Positions 1 to 18,682 of a stretch of 27,404 nt of DNA are shown one piece after another. How positions within the stretch are numbered: position 1 is the stretch's first letter; each line of letters opens with the position of its first letter. The notes under the pieces were generated by a model. It had not been told where the DNA came from and did no database searches. It was given only the letters and a program-made list of their open reading frames with translations. A program made the position numbers and the translations under genes. Location of the stretch: IMG/VR virus record IMGVR_UViG_3300027977_000166, positions 1 to 27,404 of that record; one strand, 5' to 3'. The DNA is from a virus.

Positions 1-2
1 AA

Positions 3-1271
3 GATAATCTATGTTTAACCCAACTTAAAGATTGGCAATGTTGTGTTAAATTAAATGTGGCAGAAAACAGAAATGTTATTAGAAGAATCTTTGCTGATTC
101 CTGGGTTTTTGGTACCGCTTATTTATTTCAGTTTAAATATAAAGCTAAAACTAAAAAACGTACTGGGGAACTTCGAAAAGAAAAATTTTGTGGCCCAGGA
201 GCCGACCAAAATCGAGCAGATAACTATAGAAATGTAAGTTGTTGTTTAGATACACAATCTAGTACCTGTGATAAGTGTTTAGTTAGAGGACCAGGTTTAA
301 GTAACGATCCAAAGTTTATTCAGTGGGTTTTTGCTGAACCCGGAAGACTTCTTTTACTTTCTAAAGGGTATTTAGGTATCGCTATTCTTTATGCAGCATA
401 TTTATTAGAAAACCCACAAGTCACTGGTTATCAAGGTTTTAATCATAATAATGCAGTAAGTAAAGGTCAAGTAGGTTCTGTCGATGTTGAAGATATTATA
501 TACTGTAACGCTTTAATGTCAACAAAAATAGTATCTTTAGGTAGGATTGAAATGTGCCCAGAAATATTAACAGATATTGAAAACGCTATTTTAGAGAGTA
601 CTACATTAGATCCTTTAACACAAAATCCTAACTTCTATACCGGTACTTACTTCGAAAGAGGTTGGGATTCTAACATATGGGTTAATTCTATGAAAGAATC
701 TTCTTATGAAGACCCAACTGACGTTTTAAGATATTTAGCCACAAAAGCTCAATGTAAATTAAATGATTTATTTGATAAACAACAAGGTTGCCATGAATAT
801 GAGTTGAAACCCAATAACTACTTTTTTGTTAAAGAAGTTTCCAAGATTTACAATGATGTTGTTTTGAGTGATATAAACAATGATGAAATTGACACTTTTG
901 ACCCGATTAATATAAATAACCCAATAGCTAATTCACCTATAGTAGATTTTAGTGCGTCTACAACTAATGCTTATAGTGGATTTGAAGTTACATTAGATTT
1001 GGCTAATAGATTTAGCCCTTGTGGTAGTTCTGGTGTTTGTGAACCATTACATAACTGGGATGGTGGTAATGCTTGGCCTGGTATGGGTTCAAATTCAACA
1101 GGGGATTATTCTGAAATATCTGCAAAAAATTCAGCTTTTGATTATATAACTGAGGCAAACAATAGAAACAATAGAAACACTAGGTCTAACGTACCTTATT
1201 ACTATTTTGGTTTAATACCGGGTAAAACAGCGATAACCAAATTAAGGAAAAACTTTTTCATTAACAAATAA
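3..1271 (+). CDS. Probable virion structural protein, C-terminal part (5' truncated)
   Basis: The reading frame is open from base 3 to the stop at 1271, with no stop before the first possible start (GTG at 57). The gene therefore very probably begins outside the window and only its C-terminal 422 residues are seen. I do not recognise a named family. The visible part is rich in Asn, Ser, Tyr and Gly. It has a cysteine-rich stretch near its start (CC and CxxC-like pairs) and ends in a basic tail after a YYYFGLIPGKT segment. It is followed by co-oriented genes that look like tail or virion components, so a structural role, perhaps the end of a large tail or baseplate protein, is inferred from position and composition only. 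An overlapping 60-codon frame starting at base 55 is a shadow. Confidence 0.6.
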   Translation, partial: DNLCLTQLKDWQCCVKLNVAENRNVIRRIFADSWVFGTAYLFQFKYKAKTKKRTGELRKEKFCGPGADQNRADNYRNVSCCLDTQSSTCDKCLVRGPGLSNDPKFIQWVFAEPGRLLLLSKGYLGIAILYAAYLLENPQVTGYQGFNHNNAVSKGQVGSVDVEDIIYCNALMSTKIVSLGRIEMCPEILTDIENAILESTTLDPLTQNPNFYTGTYFERGWDSNIWVNSMKESSYEDPTDVLRYLATKAQCKLNDLFDKQQGCHEYELKPNNYFFVKEVSKIYNDVVLSDINNDEIDTFDPININNPIANSPIVDFSASTTNAYSGFEVTLDLANRFSPCGSSGVCEPLHNWDGGNAWPGMGSNSTGDYSEISAKNSAFDYITEANNRNNRNTRSNVPYYYFGLIPGKTAITKLRKNFFINK

Positions 1272-1310: not shown

Positions 1311-3362
1311 GTGAGCTATATAGATAAAAATTCAAACACGGTTATTTCAGCCAGATTAACTAACGAAGGAAGAAGATTACTATCTTTAGGTTTATTAACA
1401 TTTGACACTTTTAGGTTAGGTGATTCCAATATTGATTACACAACTTTAGGTTCTACTTATGATATTTCATTAGAGAACATTATAAGAGCTAAAGCACAAA
1501 ATCCTGATATTAAAACACCGATAAAACCAACAGTTAACGCAACAAATAGTTATTCTAGTATACCAACATTAAGTCCTGTTATTTTAGAAACTTTAACTGC
1601 GGCACCAAGATTAGGTTTTTTTCAGTATAATAGTGGAACTACGGTTATCCAATATACGGCATACACTGATACTGTTTGTCATGTACTTCAGGCTGATACC
1701 ATTATACCTGTTACAGGTATGACAGGAACTAATGTGGTACCTGTTAAACAAGGGACAGCCTACGGTTCAAATACATATGAACCAAAAATAGGTGATTTAA
1801 TGATGGTTAAAATGAGTAACGACCAGTTAAGTCAGACTTCAAAAGCTGTTGTCGACTTAACAACACCAGTACCTTATCTTTGGTACCAGGTTCAAGGTAC
1901 ATCAGGTACTTTAGCTGGAAGTACTTTACAAGTAACTGTTGATAGGAATTTTGCTGACTTCTCATCTTACGCTGGAAGTAATTATGCAAATGTAATATTT
2001 TATCCGTTAGGTACTGGAGGTACACAAAATAGTTTATTTAGTGACGGAGGATTCTTTAGCGGTGGTTGTGTTTGGAATATGAATAATGTTTGGAGTTACC
2101 CGATACCAGGTGTTAATGGTGCAACTTATGAAACATATGATAAATATGGTTCAGAAACTTATATCGGTACTAAAGAATATTTTGGTTATACTTCTGAAAT
2201 AGCTTATTTATATACCGCAAATACGGCATGTAATTTAGTACCATCAGTTAGTGTCATTCATTACACCAACAAAGAAACCTGTGATAACCAAACAGAACAA
2301 AAATACGGTCAAAAATTTTATGTAGACACAACGGTCGGAGGTTCACCAAAATTGATTATGCCAACTTTAATGTGGCATAGAAACCAAACTGGTGCCACAA
2401 TTGGTCATGTTTTTAGTGCTGGTACAGGAAGTACACAATATGTTACACTTTCTGGTAATAACACAACTGTTAAATATAATAATTTAGTAGATAATTTTGG
2501 GTTTAAAGTAGGAAGATTATTCCCTGAACTCCAAATGTTTAGTATTGACAACCAAGAACTAGTTGCGTCATTATCTTATAAAGCAAATAGAAATTGGACA
2601 TTGCCAACGTTACAAACAGAAGTTGTGGCCAATAACGATGGGGTTATCGACGCAACCGAAAATCTTTTTGTAACTTATTTATTTGAAAGTAATTCTGGTT
2701 ACACCACAGGTCTTCATTGTCAAGATATTGTTTGTGTTAACTTCCCTAATATAGACTGTCCACCAACTTTAAAACAGGCTGTTAATGTAAGTTTACCTGT
2801 CGGTCAGTTACCGTACATGAATTTAAGTGGCGGTAAAGGTTGGTACGCTGATAAATTTTATATTTTAGCACAAAAACAACCAATAGGTACTTACCCAGAT
2901 CCAACTGCTTGGACCGTAATTAATTACACATCACAGATTAACGGACATACTGTTGGAACTAGAATTAACCCAACAAACTTAGAGGCAACAACATTTACTA
3001 TCACAAACAACATTTACGCAAACTCAGGTGTTACCTATAATTTAAACAATTTTATTACAATACCACAAATAGCACAAAGTGAATATTTGAATTTTGGGGA
3101 TGAAAGATTTTTCTTTGGTAATATAGAATCTGTAGGTGTTACTGACAAATACAGAACAAAATTTGTTTTCACAGTTCCACCGACAGCATTTAATGTAAGT
3201 ACAAATCCTACCTGGTCATCAACCGTAGGCCAATATGTACATATAAACGAAGTTGGTGTGTACGATGTTAATAAAAATTTAGTTGCGGTCGGTAAGATGA
3301 ATTTACCTATAGAAAAAATACCAAACGCAACAATAATTATTGAAATAGCTTTTGATTTATAA
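1311..3362 (+). CDS. Putative tail/virion structural protein with shared N-terminal module
   Basis: The protein has 683 residues and starts at GTG; the 39-base gap upstream is AT-rich. Residues 1-45 contain the pattern LTNEGRRLL..GLLTF..F.LGD..IDY, which resembles the N-terminal motif (LT.TGR..LA.G...F.KFALGDDEIDY) I recall from virion proteins of many marine and T4-like phages. Shorter variants of the module recur in the next two genes. The rest is rich in Thr, Asn, Gly and Tyr, with many beta-prone stretches, as in fibre or baseplate appendage proteins, and no enzymatic motif is visible. The stop codon overlaps the next ATG by one base, which suggests translational coupling. Structural role: moderately sure. 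Exact role (fibre, baseplate, neck): unknown. Confidence 0.65.
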   Translation: MSYIDKNSNTVISARLTNEGRRLLSLGLLTFDTFRLGDSNIDYTTLGSTYDISLENIIRAKAQNPDIKTPIKPTVNATNSYSSIPTLSPVILETLTAAPRLGFFQYNSGTTVIQYTAYTDTVCHVLQADTIIPVTGMTGTNVVPVKQGTAYGSNTYEPKIGDLMMVKMSNDQLSQTSKAVVDLTTPVPYLWYQVQGTSGTLAGSTLQVTVDRNFADFSSYAGSNYANVIFYPLGTGGTQNSLFSDGGFFSGGCVWNMNNVWSYPIPGVNGATYETYDKYGSETYIGTKEYFGYTSEIAYLYTANTACNLVPSVSVIHYTNKETCDNQTEQKYGQKFYVDTTVGGSPKLIMPTLMWHRNQTGATIGHVFSAGTGSTQYVTLSGNNTTVKYNNLVDNFGFKVGRLFPELQMFSIDNQELVASLSYKANRNWTLPTLQTEVVANNDGVIDATENLFVTYLFESNSGYTTGLHCQDIVCVNFPNIDCPPTLKQAVNVSLPVGQLPYMNLSGGKGWYADKFYILAQKQPIGTYPDPTAWTVINYTSQINGHTVGTRINPTNLEATTFTITNNIYANSGVTYNLNNFITIPQIAQSEYLNFGDERFFFGNIESVGVTDKYRTKFVFTVPPTAFNVSTNPTWSSTVGQYVHINEVGVYDVNKNLVAVGKMNLPIEKIPNATIIIEIAFDL

Positions 3363-3592
3363 TGAGTTTTATTGGGGGTAATACTAATAAATTAAATTTT
3401 GTTTTAACTAAATTAGGTCAAAAAACTTTAGCCGAAAAAGGTTTAGAAAAAACAATTAAATACTATACTTTATACGATCCAGAAGTTAATTATAGGATTG
3501 ACGCATACCCTTATCTAATGGTAGACGTTTGTGGTAGCAATAAAACAATAATACCTAATAGCATAATATTTAGAGATGAATTAATACCATAA
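3362..3592 (+). CDS. Small protein consisting mostly of the shared N-terminal module
   Basis: This 76-residue protein overlaps the previous stop by one base (TAATG). Residues 1-45 follow the same pattern as the flanking genes: LTKLGQKTLAEKGL, then I-K-Y-Y, L-Y-D and VNY. Only about 30 further residues follow, so the protein is nearly the module alone. It could be a stand-alone adaptor that sits at the same site as its larger neighbours, or a remnant of a longer paralogue. No catalytic motif or membrane segment is visible. The next gene begins two bases after its stop, so all of these genes are probably translated from one transcript. Confidence 0.6.
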   Translation: MSFIGGNTNKLNFVLTKLGQKTLAEKGLEKTIKYYTLYDPEVNYRIDAYPYLMVDVCGSNKTIIPNSIIFRDELIP

Positions 3593-3594
3593 TA

Positions 3595-4707
3595 ATGACA
3601 ACGATAACAACAACTATAACACCAAACGGATATAAAAAATTAATTGCAGACGGATTAGTTAATTCCATAAAATTTTATAATTTTATGGATAACACTCATA
3701 ACTATACTGATACAGCAACAGAAAGTTTAATCAATCCGGTAATTGGATCTCATTACCAAATTACAACATCAAAACCTAACTTTTCTGATTATAGAGGTGT
3801 TTTTAATACAACACCAACAACCAAAGAAGTACAAAGTGTTACCAGTCAGGTGAAATTAACTTTTACCAATTCTGATTGTACCGATTCTTTTGAAGAATCT
3901 TATTTAACGCTAAATATTAACATGTCCCGTTGGTTTAACGCTTTAACGAATCTAACGACTTATAGTACAAATATGTCACCAGGTTTAAGTTTAGGTTTAA
4001 TTAACTATGTTACCGCCTATATACAAACACTTAACATAAGTACACAGTCTTACGATACGAGTAAAATACTTAATGATTTATTTTTATCTTGGAAGCCGGC
4101 AACAACATCTGATAGCGAAAGGTTGGAATTACTTAGTCCTGTTTATGTTACTTTAACAGGTAATAAACAAAGACAGTTGGTTGATAATAGTGGTATTAGA
4201 TTTGGTTCACCTTTTATGTTGAACTTCTCGACCAGTGAAATTAATGGTATGGCTGTTAACGGTACAGGTGTTGATATTAGTTTTTTACCACAATTCGGTT
4301 ATTGGGTTAACGGAAACACTTTTTTAGATAATAAAACAGTTGAAGAATCTGATTTAAACAATTATAAATCGATTATACCGGCAGCAAAAGTAGGAAATAG
4401 TATTTACACTTTAAACACGACAACACCATATCCAACTAATGAACGTCTTATTGGTTATGCTTTAAACATGACAAACGTTAATGATAGTGGAGAAACTTTA
4501 ATAACTGCTTTGGTTAACGCTGGTAAATTGTTCTTTAAAACTTATGGTAAAGTGGACGGTAGTGTTTATTCGATGCCAATTACGCTGAATGTTTCTGCTT
4601 CAAATCAAGATTTAAATTCAATAACAAAAATAATAGGTGGTGAAGTTATTCTTAACTTTTTTTATGACGAAAATGACACCACAACAACACCGTTAATATA
4701 TCAATAA
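3595..4707 (+). CDS. Putative tail/virion structural protein with shared N-terminal module
   Basis: The protein has 370 residues. Its start reads TTTITPNGYKKLIADGLVNSIKFYNFMDNTHNYT, interrupted here only for description. It follows the module pattern of the two genes upstream (G-x-x-x-L, a GL pair, an aromatic pair, Asp, Asn-Tyr). The body is rich in Thr, Asn, Ser and Leu and looks like a beta-rich virion protein. No enzyme motif is visible. Two bases separate it from the previous stop and one base from the next start. It is probably a paralogue of the 683-residue protein that kept the attachment end and diverged elsewhere. The precise structural role is unknown. Confidence 0.6.
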   Translation: MTTITTTITPNGYKKLIADGLVNSIKFYNFMDNTHNYTDTATESLINPVIGSHYQITTSKPNFSDYRGVFNTTPTTKEVQSVTSQVKLTFTNSDCTDSFEESYLTLNINMSRWFNALTNLTTYSTNMSPGLSLGLINYVTAYIQTLNISTQSYDTSKILNDLFLSWKPATTSDSERLELLSPVYVTLTGNKQRQLVDNSGIRFGSPFMLNFSTSEINGMAVNGTGVDISFLPQFGYWVNGNTFLDNKTVEESDLNNYKSIIPAAKVGNSIYTLNTTTPYPTNERLIGYALNMTNVNDSGETLITALVNAGKLFFKTYGKVDGSVYSMPITLNVSASNQDLNSITKIIGGEVILNFFYDENDTTTTPLIYQ

Positions 4708-4708
4708 A

Positions 4709-4939
4709 ATGCCAGTACTATTACCACAAATACCAACAAATAGTGTTGCATATAGAATACCAGATTCTTTATATACAACAACCCCACCAGCAATTACTGG
4801 GGTTAATTTTTTTATTACACCAACGCAAAAACAATTTTATTTTAAACCTGAAAATGGTACTGTAACACAAGTTACAATAGATTTTATAGGTAAAGATTGT
4901 TTATATAAAATTAATAATATGTATAAAAAAGTTGCATAA
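4709..4939 (+). CDS. Small conserved-context hypothetical protein
   Basis: This 76-residue protein starts one base after the preceding stop. It is Pro- and Thr-rich in its first half, with short beta-prone segments and a single cysteine near the end, and it lacks the shared N-terminal module. I do not recognise it. Its tight packing inside the structural block suggests a small virion or assembly component. It is followed by a 35-base AT-rich gap before the next structural gene. Confidence 0.5.
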   Translation: MPVLLPQIPTNSVAYRIPDSLYTTTPPAITGVNFFITPTQKQFYFKPENGTVTQVTIDFIGKDCLYKINNMYKKVA

Positions 4940-4974: not shown

Positions 4975-6186
4975 ATGGCTTTATTACCAGTATCAGACGT
5001 ATATCAACAAGAAAAAATTGATATCTCCACAGTATATACAATAGCACCAGGTCCTTTAGTTTCATACTATAAACTTCCGGCTTTTAATGACGCAACATTC
5101 ACAACCAGTTCGTTAAGTCATCTTTGGGGGCATCTTAGTTTAAGAACCCAAGGCGATTATAATACAGTTAATCAAACTTTTGGAAACGGAGGTTGGTTGG
5201 GTACTGCATTAGAAGGTTTGGTTGAGGCATTCGGTACTTATGGGGCCATCGCCTTTTCAGTCAATAACACAAGATACAGAACTCAGGTATATGGTCAAAA
5301 TATTGGTATGATGATACCAGTAAATTCTACCTTTTCTGGGTCAACTTCTGGTTTATCAGCAACAACTTTATATAGTTCACTTGTTTATAACTCGGATAAT
5401 TTAACAACAAATCCTGCTTCATTATGTTCAGGAACAAAAGCTGATTCTTATAAAAGTGAACCATCCATTCCATGGACAAACGACCAAGGAATCGGGTTCC
5501 AATTTTTACAAGGAACAAACCCGAACCCAAATGACACTAACTACCCTTATTATGATAGTGGTGTTGTTTATTTAATGTCTAATGTTGTTTACAACACTTT
5601 TTCTGGGGCAACAGGTTCAAGTTCTAGTTGGGGTTATTTATTTGGTCAAACTAATAAGTACACAAATGGTGCAAGACAAATAAGTACCGACCCAAGTAAT
5701 ACGCAATATACAGGCACAGGTGGTTATGATAGAATTGCTGGTGTTATGTTTCTTAATTTTGGTTTTGGAATCATCTTCGATAAACAATTGGTACAGGCTT
5801 TTGATACCACAAAATTAACAGGTGACTACACCAAAATAACTGGGGCAACAACAACTTCTGGGTTTACTAATTTTGTTGGTGCTGACTATGATATTGCAGA
5901 AATTTTAAATATCGATATCATAGCGAAACCCGAAGAATGGCCAGCGTCTTCAAATTCTTCTTATGTTGGTACAGGTGAAGATTGCGGTGTTGCCGTTTCA
6001 ACCATTACATTACACGGTGAGGATGGCCAGTGTTTAGCCATAGCAAAACCAGATCAGGCTATAGTAAAAGAACAAGGGCAGTATTTAATTTTAAACCTTA
6101 AAATACCTGTATCCGAAGATATTCAAAGTAGTTTAGCTGACACTGTTGGTAGGACTGACTGTGGTGTTAGCGGTATACCTTGTTAA
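4975..6186 (+). CDS. Putative virion structural protein
   Basis: This 403-residue protein is rich in Gly, Ser, Thr, Asn and Tyr, with no enzymatic motif, signal peptide or clear membrane segment. A Cys-containing C-terminal quarter (cysteines in the DCGV, GQCLA, DCGV and final IPC segments) resembles the cysteine pairs in the truncated protein at the left edge. It is preceded by an A-rich leader (AAAAATAAAAATG). Position at the end of the structural run and composition argue for a tail or capsid-surface protein. The exact function is not recognisable from sequence. It ends 28 bases before the resolvase gene, so the functional switch from structure to DNA metabolism happens without a visible terminator. 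Confidence 0.55.
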   Translation: MALLPVSDVYQQEKIDISTVYTIAPGPLVSYYKLPAFNDATFTTSSLSHLWGHLSLRTQGDYNTVNQTFGNGGWLGTALEGLVEAFGTYGAIAFSVNNTRYRTQVYGQNIGMMIPVNSTFSGSTSGLSATTLYSSLVYNSDNLTTNPASLCSGTKADSYKSEPSIPWTNDQGIGFQFLQGTNPNPNDTNYPYYDSGVVYLMSNVVYNTFSGATGSSSSWGYLFGQTNKYTNGARQISTDPSNTQYTGTGGYDRIAGVMFLNFGFGIIFDKQLVQAFDTTKLTGDYTKITGATTTSGFTNFVGADYDIAEILNIDIIAKPEEWPASSNSSYVGTGEDCGVAVSTITLHGEDGQCLAIAKPDQAIVKEQGQYLILNLKIPVSEDIQSSLADTVGRTDCGVSGIPC

Positions 6187-6924: not shown

Positions 6925-7758
6925 TTAGGCTAGTTGTTGTTTGATGGTATTAAATTTTTGAAATTTTCTTTCAAGACCAATCCCATCATATTCATCACCA
7001 TAAATGTAGTTACCTAGTTTAATAATTTCTTTAATAGAATTTATTGTTAAAGACGAACATTTAGAATTATTATTTTTATTGGAACAGATTAGATGATAAT
7101 TAGTTATACCAATATCGTTCAATATTGAACAAAAAGATGACCAATCGTAACCAGACGCATTAGTTATTACAAATTTTTGATACTTTTTAATATCGTACTT
7201 AAAATAAAAACACCCATCACCGTCTATAACACCTCTAATAAAATATTTTATTAAATCTTGTGGTATGAATTTTAGTACTAAATCGAAATCATTAAAACTT
7301 TTTTTTTGATAGTTTAGTGATTTAAAAAAACCATGTATTTTTTTATTGTAAACATAAGATCTAATTTGTGTTTTCCATTTAGTATCTTTTCTTGGTAAGA
7401 TTACCCTATTTTTCCATAAAATATGTTTATTTATAACATGTTTTATATTTATATAATCCTCTTCTGTGATAGACAAAGATACAACATAGTTATTATCTTT
7501 TGAAACAAAACCATCTGACCAAATAAAACCTAACATATAACTAAATTCGGCATCAATACCACCCATCAAAATACGATCATCAACTCTAACACTATTTTTC
7601 ATTTTAGGTAGGTAATTATCTAAAATTCTTTTCTCACATTCACTATTAAAATGTATTTTTCTTTCGAATAGATGGTAGCATTTTTCCTTTTTCAACCAAT
7701 TTTTCACTTTAGTTTTACTCAAACCATTTTCTATTAGAAATGTCTTTAAATCTTTCAT
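6925..7758 (-). CDS. Free-standing LAGLIDADG homing endonuclease
   Basis: The 277-residue product has two LAGLIDADG-type motifs about 100 residues apart: LGFIWSDG at 76-83 and RGVIDGDG at 175-182. The acidic residue near the end of each (D82, D181) is in the expected catalytic position. Residues 1-50 look like a helix-turn-helix or resolvase-type DNA-binding start (short helices, KTKVKNWLKKEK). Enzymes of this kind cut a long specific site in an allele lacking the gene and spread by repair. It lies on the minus strand between two intact plus-strand genes, so it behaves as a separate mobile gene and not as an intron or intein. It is very AT-rich and lysine-rich. The site it cuts is unknown but is expected near the insertion point. 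Confidence 0.85.
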   Translation of the reverse strand: MKDLKTFLIENGLSKTKVKNWLKKEKCYHLFERKIHFNSECEKRILDNYLPKMKNSVRVDDRILMGGIDAEFSYMLGFIWSDGFVSKDNNYVVSLSITEEDYINIKHVINKHILWKNRVILPRKDTKWKTQIRSYVYNKKIHGFFKSLNYQKKSFNDFDLVLKFIPQDLIKYFIRGVIDGDGCFYFKYDIKKYQKFVITNASGYDWSSFCSILNDIGITNYHLICSNKNNNSKCSSLTINSIKEIIKLGNYIYGDEYDGIGLERKFQKFNTIKQQLA

Positions 7759-13927: not shown

Positions 13928-14728
13928 ATGAAATACCAGTTCCAAATAAAAGAAGTTAATCGAATAATCGCAACAGATTTTGTTCAAGAAAGACATTACT
14001 CAAAAGTAATGCCAAAATTAACCAAACATTGGTTAGGTTGTTTTTTAGAAGAAGAATTGGTTGGTATTGTGACTTTAGGTTGGGGTACACAACCACTACA
14101 AACAATTAAAAAGTTATTCCCTGATTTAAAATCGGGTGATTATTATGAGATTGGAAAAATGTGTATGGATGAAAAAATGCCAAAAAATTCCGAATCCCAA
14201 ATGTTATCTGCTGTCGTTAAATGGATGAAAAAAAATCTACCAGAAAAAAAGTTTTTATTTACTTGGGCTGATGGCATTGTTGGTAAAGTTGGTTATGTTT
14301 ACCAGGGTTCTAATTTTAATTATGGTGGCTTTATTTGGACTGATATCTATATATCGCCAACAGGTGAAAAGATTCACCCTAGAAGTTCAAAAAGTTTGTT
14401 AAAAGAAAACGCTGAGTTTTTGGGTAAAGATAAATTATTTTGGATGACACCTGATTTTATGGCAATTAAAGGTATCAGACGGATTAGAGGTAAACAATTT
14501 AGGTATATCTATCCTTTAAATAAAGAGGCAAAAAAAATTCTAACAAATAGTTCAACGGTTAGTTGGCAACAAAAATACCCAAAAGAAGTGGATTTATTAT
14601 GGAAAGAACAAATGGGAAAAGGTTTATATGTTAATCTTGTCGGTAAACCCGAAATGGATTTAAGCATTGTTGAGTATAACGAAAAGAATGTTAATGCTCA
14701 CAAAAAACAAACGGTTAACGATAAATAG
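13928..14728 (+). CDS. Mom-like GNAT-fold DNA-modification protein
   Basis: The 266-residue protein matches a phage family related to Mu Mom. It has an HY pair at 23-24 in ERHYSKVMP, a strand LVGIVTLGWG, YYEIGKMCMDE with E74, FTWADG at 112-117 and the family signature YVYQGSNFNYGGF at 124-136. Mu Mom adds a carbamoylmethyl-type group to adenine in DNA and protects it from restriction enzymes. Whether this protein makes the same modification is inference. The C-terminal third has a second conserved part, RGKQFRYIYPL. It begins at the base after the previous stop, and its end overlaps the convergent secreted-protein gene by 14 bases. Confidence 0.7.
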   Translation: MKYQFQIKEVNRIIATDFVQERHYSKVMPKLTKHWLGCFLEEELVGIVTLGWGTQPLQTIKKLFPDLKSGDYYEIGKMCMDEKMPKNSESQMLSAVVKWMKKNLPEKKFLFTWADGIVGKVGYVYQGSNFNYGGFIWTDIYISPTGEKIHPRSSKSLLKENAEFLGKDKLFWMTPDFMAIKGIRRIRGKQFRYIYPLNKEAKKILTNSSTVSWQQKYPKEVDLLWKEQMGKGLYVNLVGKPEMDLSIVEYNEKNVNAHKKQTVNDK

Positions 14729-15290
14729 TTAAAGAACCGACTTTGTAATCGTAAACACCTTTAATGGTAACAAACTCAACAAAATAAATATAGACACCAG
14801 TTGTGATATCCAAACCACCTACGGTACCATCCCAAACAAAACCCATATCATCAGTTTTATAAACCAAACCACCCCAGTTATTATAAACCGAAATAACCAT
14901 GCTTTCGATATAATAACCTACAGGTCGCCAAGTATCGTTTAAACCATCACTATTAGGTGTAAAACTATTTGGTATGTAGACTACTGGTATACGACAAGGT
15001 ATTACTTTAATAACATACTCTTGTGTTTCAGACTCACAAAGTTCGTTTTCTGAAAAAACAGTTATTTCATAATTACCTTCTTTTTCAAAAGTGTAAGTTA
15101 TTTTTTCTGTTTTAAAAGTTCTAATTAAACGATTATTCAATTTAATCACCCAACTATAATCACAGTTTGGTGTACCTAACGAATAATAGGTGAATGTTTT
15201 ATTACTATCTTCACATAATTCTACAATTTGATTCTGTGAGTACAGATTTAAAGTGATTAATAAAAATAATAGTGTTAATAATTTTTTCAT
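14715..15290 (-). CDS. Secreted protein with T9SS type-B (gliding-associated) C-terminal sorting domain
   Basis: The 191-residue protein has a Bacteroidota signal peptide at residues 1-19 (ending NLYSQ) and an Ig/PKD-like beta region at about 20-98. From about residue 103 it carries the full type-B sorting domain: IPNSFTPNSDGLNDTW, then VYNNWGGLVYKT, WDGT, GVYIYFVEF and the final GSLTIYR. In Bacteroidota this domain directs export through the type IX system and attachment to the cell surface. Finding it in a phage segment implies surface delivery in the host, or reuse as a virion adhesin. It is the last gene of a tightly packed minus-strand cassette, one base after the frameshifted gene. Confidence 0.85.
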   Translation of the reverse strand: MKKLLTLLFLLITLNLYSQNQIVELCEDSNKTFTYYSLGTPNCDYSWVIKLNNRLIRTFKTEKITYTFEKEGNYEITVFSENELCESETQEYVIKVIPCRIPVVYIPNSFTPNSDGLNDTWRPVGYYIESMVISVYNNWGGLVYKTDDMGFVWDGTVGGLDITTGVYIYFVEFVTIKGVYDYKVGSLTIYR

Positions 15291-15291
15291 T

Positions 15292-15851
15292 TTAGTTGTG
15301 TTCTATAGGTAATAACATTGGTTGAGGAAATACATTTACTGACATTACACTTACAAAAGTACATCCTGCATTATTATAAGTATAAGTTAAATTAAAGGAA
15401 CTAGAACCACTTGTGGTGGGACAAAATTCATTCCCTAAAACACCGATACCAGACCAAACACCCCCTGTTGGGTTACCATTTAAAGTAACACAGTTACCAC
15501 CTTCACACATATTAGGTAAAAGGGTTAATACGGGGTTGACGTTGTATATAAAAACATTCAGTGTAACAACAGGACTTAAACAACCTATATTGTTAGAGGC
15601 TTGAACCTGTACGGCATTTGGTATTAAACCAGGGTTAGCCCCCGACCAATCCACTTCGATCTGATTCGTGCCTTGACCACTAGTAATAACACCTGGAACT
15701 AATACATCCCAAATGTAAGTTAACCCTGCCGTTGGTGTTACGTTATAAATCGACATGCCTGTTTGATAACATACCGTATCGGGATTTACTGTAGTAAATT
15801 GTGCTAAACCAAACTTGGTAGTAGTGTTAAAAGTAGTAGTAATTTTTTCAT
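15292..15851 (-). pseudogene. Secreted PKD/Ig-like adhesin domain protein, broken by a single-base frameshift
   Basis: Starting at 15851, the minus strand encodes a signal-peptide-like start (MKKLLLLLTLLPSLV) that hits TAG at 15804-15806. Directly after, the -1 frame reads LAQFTTVNPDTVCYQTG and continues openly to the stop at 15292. Adding one T to the T3 run (15806-15808 on the plus strand, AAA) restores a 186-codon gene whose signal peptide ends in the usual AQ. The downstream part holds PKD-like Ig domains (YIWDV, IEVDWSG, VQASNNIGCLS, PNMCEGGNCVTLNG). Either a real mutation, a programmed or phase-variable shift, or a sequencing error explains it. If only the later ATG at 15756 were used, a leaderless 154-residue protein would result. 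Confidence 0.75.
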
Positions 15852-15968: not shown

Positions 15969-16562
15969 TTAATTATGGTTTATGTTTGTTATATTAGGCA
16001 AGGCCGTGTTTATTACTCCGTTATAAATTGTAAATGGAGTCGTTGGGCAAGAGTTATTAATCCAGTTACCCCAATCACCATCTGCTCCCGCTGTTACTTG
16101 TATTGATAGATTTTGTGGTGTACATACGTTAGCAACGGTTACCGTAAAACAGAACGACCAAGTACATGAACCTGAGTCACCCCAATCATCTGCTGGGTTA
16201 TTATTTAATGGGCCACTTATACCAGAATCAAAAAACCAACCTGGTCCTACTAATCCTGATGGCGTAAAATTATTTAACATCCAAACCCAATTACCACCAC
16301 CTCCTTGACAATTTATTGGTGGTGCTGCCTGTTGTAAACCAACCCATCCTGGTCCTAAGTTAATATCAAAACCCTCCAACCAGTTGGATCCCACATTTAA
16401 TCCAGGCCACCCTGTCATTGTATAACAAACAGTTACAACAGTTCCTGGTGTATATCCAACCACCGGAGGTACCGGATTAAGTGTAAATGTTTGAACACCA
16501 ACGCACTGACTATATAGTGTGTTACTTATTAAAAACAATATATATAATAAAATTTTTTTCAT
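15969..16562 (-). CDS. Secreted Gly/Trp/Asn-rich surface protein
   Basis: The 197-residue protein has a signal peptide at 1-18 (MKKILLYILFLISNTLYSQ, cut near SQ/C). The mature part is rich in Gly, Trp, Asn, Pro and Cys, with segments such as SNWLEGFDINLGPGW, GNWVWMLNN, GPGWFFDSG, WSFCFTV and GDWGNW. I recall similar segments in the N-terminal domain of large Bacteroidota secreted proteins that end in the gliding-associated sorting domain. Here that domain is in a separate gene two positions downstream. It overlaps the upstream gene by four bases (ATGA), a sign of translational coupling. Function unknown; surface adhesion is the best guess. Confidence 0.7.
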   Translation of the reverse strand: MKKILLYILFLISNTLYSQCVGVQTFTLNPVPPVVGYTPGTVVTVCYTMTGWPGLNVGSNWLEGFDINLGPGWVGLQQAAPPINCQGGGGNWVWMLNNFTPSGLVGPGWFFDSGISGPLNNNPADDWGDSGSCTWSFCFTVTVANVCTPQNLSIQVTAGADGDWGNWINNSCPTTPFTIYNGVINTALPNITNINHN

Positions 16563-17295: not shown

Positions 17296-18096
17296 ATGAA
17301 TAAAATCCAAAAAATAATTCACGTAGCCGACCTTCATATTCGTTTATTTAAAAGACATGAAGAATATAAGGAACAATTCCAAAAATTCTTTGATGAATGT
17401 CGAAAACAACAACCTGAACGTATTGTTATATGTGGGGACGTTTGCCATTCTAAAAATACGGTAACGCCAGAATTAATTAGTATGGTGACTTCTTTTTTTA
17501 ATGAATGTACTAAAATAGCAAAAACAGTTGTTATTTTGGGTAATCATGATTTTTTGGTTAACAACTTAGATAGAATGGATACCTTAACACCAATTTTTGA
17601 AAGTATGCAAAACCCAGATATTATTTTTTTAAAACACACAGGTTGTTATGAGGATGAAAACATTGTTTGGTGCGTCTATGGACATATGGAAGGTTCTCAA
17701 AGACCAGATATTGAGAAAGCAAAAACAGAGTTTGGTGATGATAAAACTTATGTTGGTTTATATCACGACCCATTGGTTGGTTTAAAAACGGCAATAGGGT
17801 TTGAGTTTGAAGATGGAAATGATATTTCTATCTTTGAAGGTTGTGATGCGGTAATGTGCGGGGATATACATTTATACGATGTTATGTATCATAGAGAAAC
17901 ACCTATTGTAATGCCAGGTAGCATGATTGCCCAAGATTTTGGTGAAAAGGTTAAAGGTCATGGTTATGTTTTATGGAATGTTAAAGATAGAACACATAAA
18001 CAAATAGATATCCCATCAGATTATGGTTTTTACACTTTTAAAATAAAATCTATTGAAGATATCGAAAACGAATCTGAAAAGTTAGTAAATGCCTAA
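17296..18096 (+). CDS. gp47/SbcD/Mre11-like recombination nuclease
   Basis: This 266-residue calcineurin-type phosphoesterase has D12-x-H14 in HVADLHI, D48 in CGDVCH, GNHD at 82-85 (N83, H84), H157 in YHDP and GDIH at 189-192. These residues bind two metal ions. With the gp46-like ATPase it would process DNA ends for recombination and replication restart, acting on host and phage DNA in the cytoplasm. It is shorter than T4 gp47 (339 residues), mainly in the C-terminal part. It overlaps the Mom-like gene by 8 bases. Unusually, its ATPase partner lies about 1.5 kb further on and not directly adjacent. Confidence 0.85.
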   Translation: MNKIQKIIHVADLHIRLFKRHEEYKEQFQKFFDECRKQQPERIVICGDVCHSKNTVTPELISMVTSFFNECTKIAKTVVILGNHDFLVNNLDRMDTLTPIFESMQNPDIIFLKHTGCYEDENIVWCVYGHMEGSQRPDIEKAKTEFGDDKTYVGLYHDPLVGLKTAIGFEFEDGNDISIFEGCDAVMCGDIHLYDVMYHRETPIVMPGSMIAQDFGEKVKGHGYVLWNVKDRTHKQIDIPSDYGFYTFKIKSIEDIENESEKLVNA

Positions 18097-18682
18097 AGGT
18101 GATTTTAACATACAAAAAATAACCAAAAAAGAGGCCGCAACCATCTTATTACAGTACCATTATTTAAAAGATAAATCTAAAACTTTTAAAAGTGGTTACA
18201 ACTATGGTTTATTTAAAAACGGTGAACTATTAGGTGCTATTGTTTTTACGGGTTTACCAGTACCTGAGCTGAGTAAAGGGATGTTGGGTTTAGAGAGAAA
18301 CCAACAGGAAGGTTTATTTGAATTAAGCAGGTTATGCGTTCATCCAAAAATTCAAGGCCAAGAACATAACATCACAAGTTGGTTTGTTAGTCGAAGTATT
18401 AGAAGTTTACGTAAAGAAACTGAGGTTAGATTAATATTAAGTTATGCTGACGCAGAATACCATGAAGGCGTTATTTATAAAGCGTGTAATTTCACTTATT
18501 ATGGTTTAACCGATGCTAAAAAAGATTTTTGGATTTACCAAGAAGATGGTTCTTATGTTAAACATTCCAGGGGTTCGGTTAAAAATTTAAAAGGTGAATG
18601 GCGACCTAGGAGTAGAAAACATCGGTACATACTATTATTTGATAAAAATTTAAATATTAAATGGAAATCCCCTACGAATTAA
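18089..18682 (+). CDS. Mom-like GNAT-fold DNA-modification protein (second)
   Basis: This 197-residue protein matches the common phage Mom-like family. It has HY at 24-25, the strand ELLGAIVFTGLP, FELSRLCVHP at 77-86, LSYADAEYHEGVIYKACNFTYYG at 117-139 and the C-terminal EWRPRSRKHRYI. The AD...G.IY.A.NF.Y.G core is the signature shared with Mu Mom, which modifies adenines. It is only distantly like the Mom-like protein at 13928-14728, so the two are not a recent duplication. It is inserted between the gp47- and gp46-like genes and overlaps both neighbours (8 and 22 bases). DNA modification as a role is a family-based inference. Confidence 0.75.
   Translation: MPKGDFNIQKITKKEAATILLQYHYLKDKSKTFKSGYNYGLFKNGELLGAIVFTGLPVPELSKGMLGLERNQQEGLFELSRLCVHPKIQGQEHNITSWFVSRSIRSLRKETEVRLILSYADAEYHEGVIYKACNFTYYGLTDAKKDFWIYQEDGSYVKHSRGSVKNLKGEWRPRSRKHRYILLFDKNLNIKWKSPTN

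Follow-up and report, generated by a model that had tools for sequence, protein, structure and literature searches.

The domain closest to the locus described here is PF12571 (Phage_tail_fib, DUF3751), the N-terminal domain of tail fibers of the P2 gpH type, in which an N-terminal half (N-half) of the form LT..G...L....GD is followed by a C-terminal half (C-half) of the form E.G.YD..G.L.AV. Its role as a baseplate-contact domain is itself an inference in PMC6363177. In PMC12469244, overexpression of a DUF3751-plus-fiber protein is reported to slow E. coli, and a type VI secretion system role is proposed, which has no bearing on attachment. Among the papers listed by literature searches, none dealt with a split tail-collar domain, most subscription journals being outside those searches. 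We analyzed IMG/VR virus record IMGVR_UViG_3300027977_000166 (27.4 kb, hereafter the window), in which five consecutive, closely packed genes, P1 to P5, are found (Table 1); P2 gpH, by contrast, denotes the fiber protein of the named phage P2. P1, P2, and P3 begin with a shared module. We give about an even chance to the proposal that this module belongs to a split docking domain of the tail-collar type, which P1 would carry in cis and which P2 and/or P3 would form in trans with P5. The window resembles PF12571 in both patterns, in their order, and in that tail proteins carry them. It differs in that the halves do not lie together in one N-terminal fiber domain of ~150 residues; ~570 residues separate them in P1, and P2, P3, and P5 carry them on different chains.

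The shared N-terminal module

Relatives of P1 were collected from IMG/VR, on contigs as long as 380 kb. Among 141 stretches, the best 80 represented 78 loci, grouped here into the window's own (near) clade and a distant (far) clade; near-duplicates are included, with 18 distinct P2 sequences across the 22 near loci. The N-half profiles and trees were built without L077, whose P1 N-half lies in a different frame, and without L047, whose start is extended. Both L014 and L030 end inside P1 and were omitted from the joined tree, and L031 ends just past the P5 start.

Sequence comparison confirmed that the N-termini of P1, P2, and P3 are homologous. BLASTP within the window linked P2 to P3 (E 1e-5, 35% over 54 aa), and neither P1-P2 (E 1.8) nor P1-P3 N-termini gave a significant match; the window alone thus does not link P1 to the other two, and profiles of the relatives were needed. 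Near-clade profiles in local mode gave 99.0% for P2-P3 (E 5e-18), 89.6% for P1-P2 (E 1.9e-6), and 84.5% for P1-P3 (E 6.9e-6), and 0/40 column shuffles matched any of the three scores. Values for P1 were lower in a -glob run (32%, E 9e-5, with P2 and 16%, E 3e-4, with P3; 98.7% for P2-P3). As a control, 14 further families of these loci were compared at both termini and reached at most 3.5% against the N-half profiles. Across modules from P1, P2, P3, and far P5, the T, G, D, and Y were invariant (135/135) and the L preceding T was present in 121/135. When 12 whole records were searched with the N-half profile, P1 was found and, in the seven far-clade records among them, also the gene right after P1, a P5 homologue. 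Profile comparison detected no relatedness among the bodies behind the N-halves. The initial annotation had described three genes with a common N-terminal pattern that diverge after it, and had suggested profile-profile alignment as the check; the genes and coordinates, the pattern, and the divergence were all borne out.

The C-half and the relation to PF12571

The shared module appears to be one half of a domain. Besides the N-half, P1 and far P5 carry a common C-terminal segment, EVGIYD..NLVAIGK. Profiles of PF12571 were made from 11 tail-fiber sequences of named phages, the first being P2 gpH. Against the PF12571 N-half, the N-halves of far P1 and far P5 scored 78% and 72%, and far-clade and pooled profiles 72-78% (E 2-4e-5). 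Against the PF12571 C-half, the C-halves of far P1, far P5, and near P1 scored 95%, 96%, and 94.6% (E 7e-8 to 5e-9). Cross comparisons of N-half with C-half stayed below 6%. In far-clade P1 and P5, both halves therefore resemble PF12571, and they do so in the same order. Decoys reached 11.6% with the N-half profile and 29.4% with the C-half profile; because the N-terminus of a RuvC-like protein gave a false 29% (E 6e-4) against the PF12571 C-half, lone matches around E 1e-3 were not trusted.

Judged on these comparisons, the P1/P5 module is a relative of PF12571 rather than a member, since no scanned member reached the Pfam gathering score of 23 bits. Scans of 46 P1 members at E 0.1 did not turn up PF12571, it was not matched by P1, P2, P3, or P5 of the window at E 1, and the window gave 0 matches to it at E 10. 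Among far P5 members, 2/22 matched it (best E 0.066). In PHROG, 1/22 far P5 members touched tail-fiber families (best E 0.0012), and the family matched by the most members (5/22) carries no assigned function. Searches of PDB sequences with P1, N-half, and far P5 profiles gave nothing useful.

Segregation of the two arrangements

The cis and trans arrangements segregate between the clades. All near loci extending past P1 (22/22) have the order P1 (N-half and C-half), P2 (N-half), P3 (N-half), P4, and P5 without an N-half. In contrast, P5 has an N-half in 54/56 far loci, and P2 through P4 are absent between P1 and P5; the other two far loci (L030 and L031) end too early to tell, and the P5 of L053 is cut before its C-half. 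The bodies of near and far P5 are homologous (99.3%). An hhalign comparison of the near and far P5 profiles (99.8%) begins at far column 92, and in 16 single comparisons near residue 1-10 landed on far 87-95 in eight, or in ten if 101 is allowed, with six beginning further in. The near P5 profile matched P1 at 94.1%, and the C-half was detected at E 1e-3 in 18/22 near-clade P5 proteins, those of L002 and L018 being cut by the contig end. P4 as a further piece of P5 was considered and rejected (at most 1.5%).

P2 is a real gene, as it is kept in 22/22 near-clade loci reaching that far, has a ratio of nonsynonymous to synonymous substitution rates (dN/dS) of 0.08-0.38 in 12 pairs, and has an ATG overlapping the P1 stop (TAATG) in 19/22. 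An end-to-end alignment of P2 with far P5 covers residues 1-86 of the latter (90%, E 2e-7), whereas a local alignment covers only 1-47. The likeness of P2 to the piece missing from P5 would also be expected of a functionless, decaying remnant of the P5 N-terminus, but the low dN/dS, the retention in every locus, and the invariant T, G, D, and Y make a remnant very improbable. That P2 borrowed the module and serves P1 or P3 as an assembly factor or chaperone is a somewhat better alternative, although still improbable. Tail-fiber chaperone genes often adjoin their fiber gene, and P2 lies between two structural genes with its start overlapping the P1 stop; however, P2 matched no chaperone family in Pfam or PHROG, and it can be aligned with far P5 from end to end. 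The N-half tree was also tried as a guide to the origin of P2, and did not resolve it.

Adjacent halves in named phages

The halves are also found on adjacent genes in other phages. In LR756508 (484 kb), the one N-half lies in a frame of ~212 aa directly upstream of a C-half-only protein of 482 aa, and queries from this record revealed a like pairing in three further phages, immuto (Flavobacterium), Mel-JY01 (Microcystis), and RM378 (Rhodothermus). The N-half proteins and their C-half-only neighbors are A with B and C in LR756508, gp107 with gp106 and gp105 in immuto, 512 with 513-517 in Mel-JY01, and p127 and p129 with p128 in RM378. Whole-record searches found, in the same order of phages, 1, 1, 1, and 2 N-halves (E 0.1) and 2, 2, 5, and 2 C-halves (E 0.001), all clustered except a weak second C-half in RM378 (E 9e-6) that lies ~6 kb off. 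These N-halves scored 90% (E 1.7e-6) against the PF12571 N-half, 96.9% (E 1.9e-10) against P2, and 70% against P3; the C-halves scored 98.4% against P1 and 96.3% (E 1.5e-9) against near P5. The immuto pair comes five genes after the annotated baseplate wedge protein.

In immuto, Mel-JY01, and RM378, where these proteins are annotated as hypothetical, an N-half-only protein adjoins C-half-only proteins as in the window. The N-half proteins differ from P3 in having a body of ~160-180 aa without detectable likeness to that of P3. Profile comparison established no homology of the C-half-only bodies to P5. The near P5 body did not score above its shuffles; an equivalence with far P5 bodies (5%, E 0.008) was rejected, although the score of 25.9 topped 30/30 shuffles (at most 17.2) and is a weak hint. 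A tail-attachment role is likely for these hypothetical proteins of three isolated phages, and for unannotated ones in large uncultured phages.

As a separate observation, the LR756508 N-half protein (L086:18468) has no ATG, GTG, or TTG at the start position of its homologues (MGYL..), the codons there being ATT GGA TAT.

Structure models

The AlphaFold2 model of P1 had a mean predicted local distance difference test (pLDDT) of 80.2 and a predicted template modeling score of 0.74. In its N-half, residues 11-40 had pLDDT 83-87 and residues 1-10 ~50. Its best match was the HFTV1 tail chain 9h4p_BD (Z 10.2, root mean square deviation 2.3 over 113 residues in the range 1..683; next Z 7.4), with a Foldseek probability of 0.08. 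The range on a single target chain suggests that both ends of P1 take part, and our own reading of the model is that the two ends may form one domain. PMC12494034 describes a hub of HFTV1 that anchors tail fibers, and we infer that chain BD is this hub. A match to the T4 baseplate chain 5iv5_BJ (Z 7.0) may reflect a common arrangement. Foldseek against BFVD at E 0.001 gave one full-length relative of P1 (TM 0.79/0.75), A0A6J5L8D6 of an uncultured phage, besides 10 matches that were partial.

In the P3 model, residues 1-10 and 23-70 had pLDDT below 50, while most of the body had 80-94. Foldseek and VIA gave no convincing fold for P3 (best Z 4.5). A scan of IMG/VR with the single P3 protein found nothing, and a scan with the P3 alignment found 10 loci, all on contigs already in the set.

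A proposed docking domain in two parts

A tail setting of the cluster is well supported, because in the near-clade record G006 two wedge genes precede P1 by ~16-18 kb on its strand, one of the gp25 type (PF04965, E 1e-14) and one for a gp6-type baseplate wedge subunit (PHROG 219, E 9e-17). For P1 through P5 of the window itself, scans against Pfam and PHROG gave no structural family. In the mechanism that we propose, the shared module would be the N-terminal half of a PF12571-like tail-collar-fiber attachment domain, and the segment that ends P1 and P5 would be its C-terminal half. P1 would hold both halves on one chain with its large body inserted between them. The domain of P5 would be in pieces, its C-half staying in P5 and orphan N-halves coming from P2, which has no body, and from P3, which has one of 300 aa. 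The N-half of P2 or P3 would then join the C-half of P5 at the baseplate as one domain, completing and anchoring P5.

Proteins that are fused in some genomes and separate yet adjacent in others are a recognized sign of interacting partners. This pattern, and the low confidence of the N-half when P3 was modeled (from only 18 sequences), are our grounds for inferring assembly in trans. The alternative is that the N-half alone binds a common baseplate site as an independent docking tag, with the C-half a separate small domain and P2 capping, spacing, or competing. We consider it unlikely. C-half-only proteins are common (five in Mel-JY01), no relation of the P3 body to other parts was detected, and the P2 and P3 N-halves are nearest each other (99%), as expected of alternatives at one site. 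On the other hand, both halves are ordered on one chain in P1, far P5, and PF12571, AlphaFold2 leaves most of the P3 N-half unfolded where no C-half is recognized (from those 18 sequences only), and the absence of the N-half from P5 coincides with free-standing N-halves.

Several findings weigh against a domain split between P2 or P3 and P5. Near-clade families alone were weak against PF12571 (N-halves of P1 27%, P3 18%, and P2 10%; P5 C-half 43%), so that the link to PF12571 passes through distant relatives. The PF12571 profile reached a best E of 0.27 against PDB sequences, which leaves the division into halves resting on sequence, and the Foldseek probability of the 9h4p_BD match is low. 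The 18 sequences behind the P3 model could by themselves explain its poor N-half. The C-half was undetected at E 1e-3 in the complete P5 of L003 and L004, having diverged in the window's subclade, and near P5 C-halves are conserved no better than the body (0.38 versus 0.40). The contrast between near and far clades is a single evolutionary event. There are two orphan N-halves (P2 and P3) for one orphan C-half (P5), which makes the pairing ambiguous. Lastly, P2 is as close to far P1 (95.7%) as to far P5 (95.0%), and the N-half tree leaves its origin undecided.

The initial annotation had suggested that the module is a docking domain, by which exchangeable outer parts attach to one site on the virion, and that the 76-residue protein may be a competitor or spacer there. 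The docking idea agrees with the kinship to the PF12571 N-half, the bodies with no detected relatedness, and the upstream wedge genes; it needs correction in that the module appears to be only half a domain, and it overlooked both the C-half in P1 and P5 and the lack of an N-half in P5 where P2 and P3 occur. For P2, a detached half-domain that completes P5 is better supported than a competitor or spacer. A further, tentative possibility, about which we have some doubt, is that one N-half serves as a common socket into which several C-half proteins, of which Mel-JY01 has five, fit as exchangeable plugs, or that the roles are reversed as in the window, with P2 and P3 alternating on the P5 C-half and P2 a trans-complementing half-domain that chooses the mounted body. 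Such alternation would revive the competitor idea in a different form. More broadly, the proposed split suggests that an attachment domain of the tail-collar type may be built from two polypeptides, so that tail parts could be swapped without covalent fusion.

Fission or fusion

Insertional splitting of a once-continuous gene is plausible, because putative endonuclease genes occupy this spot in relatives. L031 has an HNH-like open reading frame (ORF) between P1 and P5 (by eye; no Pfam hit), and L074 (7012-8013) and L056 (4561) have an extra P1-like start of ~26 codons before an endonuclease-like ORF (DUF4379/DUF723 matches), with an intact P1 following. In T4-like phages, the split nrdA of Aeh1 and gene 43 of phage 25 yield working enzymes, according to PMC2988022. 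Those genes likewise give one chain as two cooperating products and have endonuclease genes associated; they differ in that their products are enzymes, whereas the window's would be a structural domain, and no endonuclease was recognized in P3-P4.

Separate half genes could instead be ancestral, with far P5 (and P1) fused later, which is compatible with a split docking domain. We put fusion not far short of even odds, as the split state occurs in four other lineages, the named phages above, and the root is unresolved: in a tree with P5 as outgroup, near P1 rows fall unresolved at the base of P1. However, the fused state is that of PF12571 proteins and of P1 in either clade, the P5 bodies of the two clades are homologous while the named-phage bodies have no established homology to P3 or P5, and the N-half tree nests near P1 among far P1 with mixed support.

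Gene layout and neighboring observations

Table 1. Features of the P1-P5 cluster (positions in the window)
Feature	Position	Strand	Evidence or remark
P1, 683 aa: N-half, ~570-aa body, and C-half	1311..3362	+	GTG start; relatives in 78 loci
P1 N-half, ~48 residues, LT..G...L..GL..F..F.LGDS.IDY	1311..1454	+	
P1 C-half, residues ~622-683, HINEVGVYDVNKNLVAVGKMNLPIEK	3174..3359	+	hmmsearch E 2e-29
TAATG, P1 stop overlapping P2 start	3360..3364	+	
P2, 76 aa, free-standing N-half	3362..3592	+	Profile alignment, dN/dS
P3, 370 aa: N-half and own body, C-half not recognized	3595..4707	+	
P3 N-half, ~52 residues	3595..3750	+	Profile alignment
P4, 76 aa, near-clade gene, relation to other parts not detected	4709..4939	+	
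P5, 403 aa: body and C-half, without the N-half of its distant homologues	4975..6186	+	
P5 C-half, residues ~319-379, diverged	5929..6111	+	hmmsearch E 5e-8; profile alignments

One 380-kb contig (G001, the L016 record) carries both a far-type and a near-type P1-P5 cluster, at 47.9 kb and 274.6 kb (L080-L082). A separate set of RuvC-like and SbcD-like genes, recognized by their likeness to those of the window, accompanies each cluster, and GC content is similar (0.30-0.32). Either the assembly is chimeric or the phage has two tail sets.

Elsewhere in the window, a LAGLIDADG-like endonuclease ORF (6925-7758, minus strand; E 1.9e-4, just below the cut-off) adjoins a RuvC-like gene. Two proteins of the Mom family (PF25680), the family of the Mu DNA-modification protein, are encoded at 13928-14728 (E 2e-53) and 18089-18682 (E 2.7e-29). 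At 14715-15290 on the minus strand lies the gene of a protein whose CHU_C type IX secretion signal domain (PF13585, E 5.6e-15), together with the ORFs next to it, points to a Bacteroidota host. Beside it, also on the minus strand, are a PKD-like ORF (15292-15756) and an ORF with a signal-peptide-like start (15969-16562).

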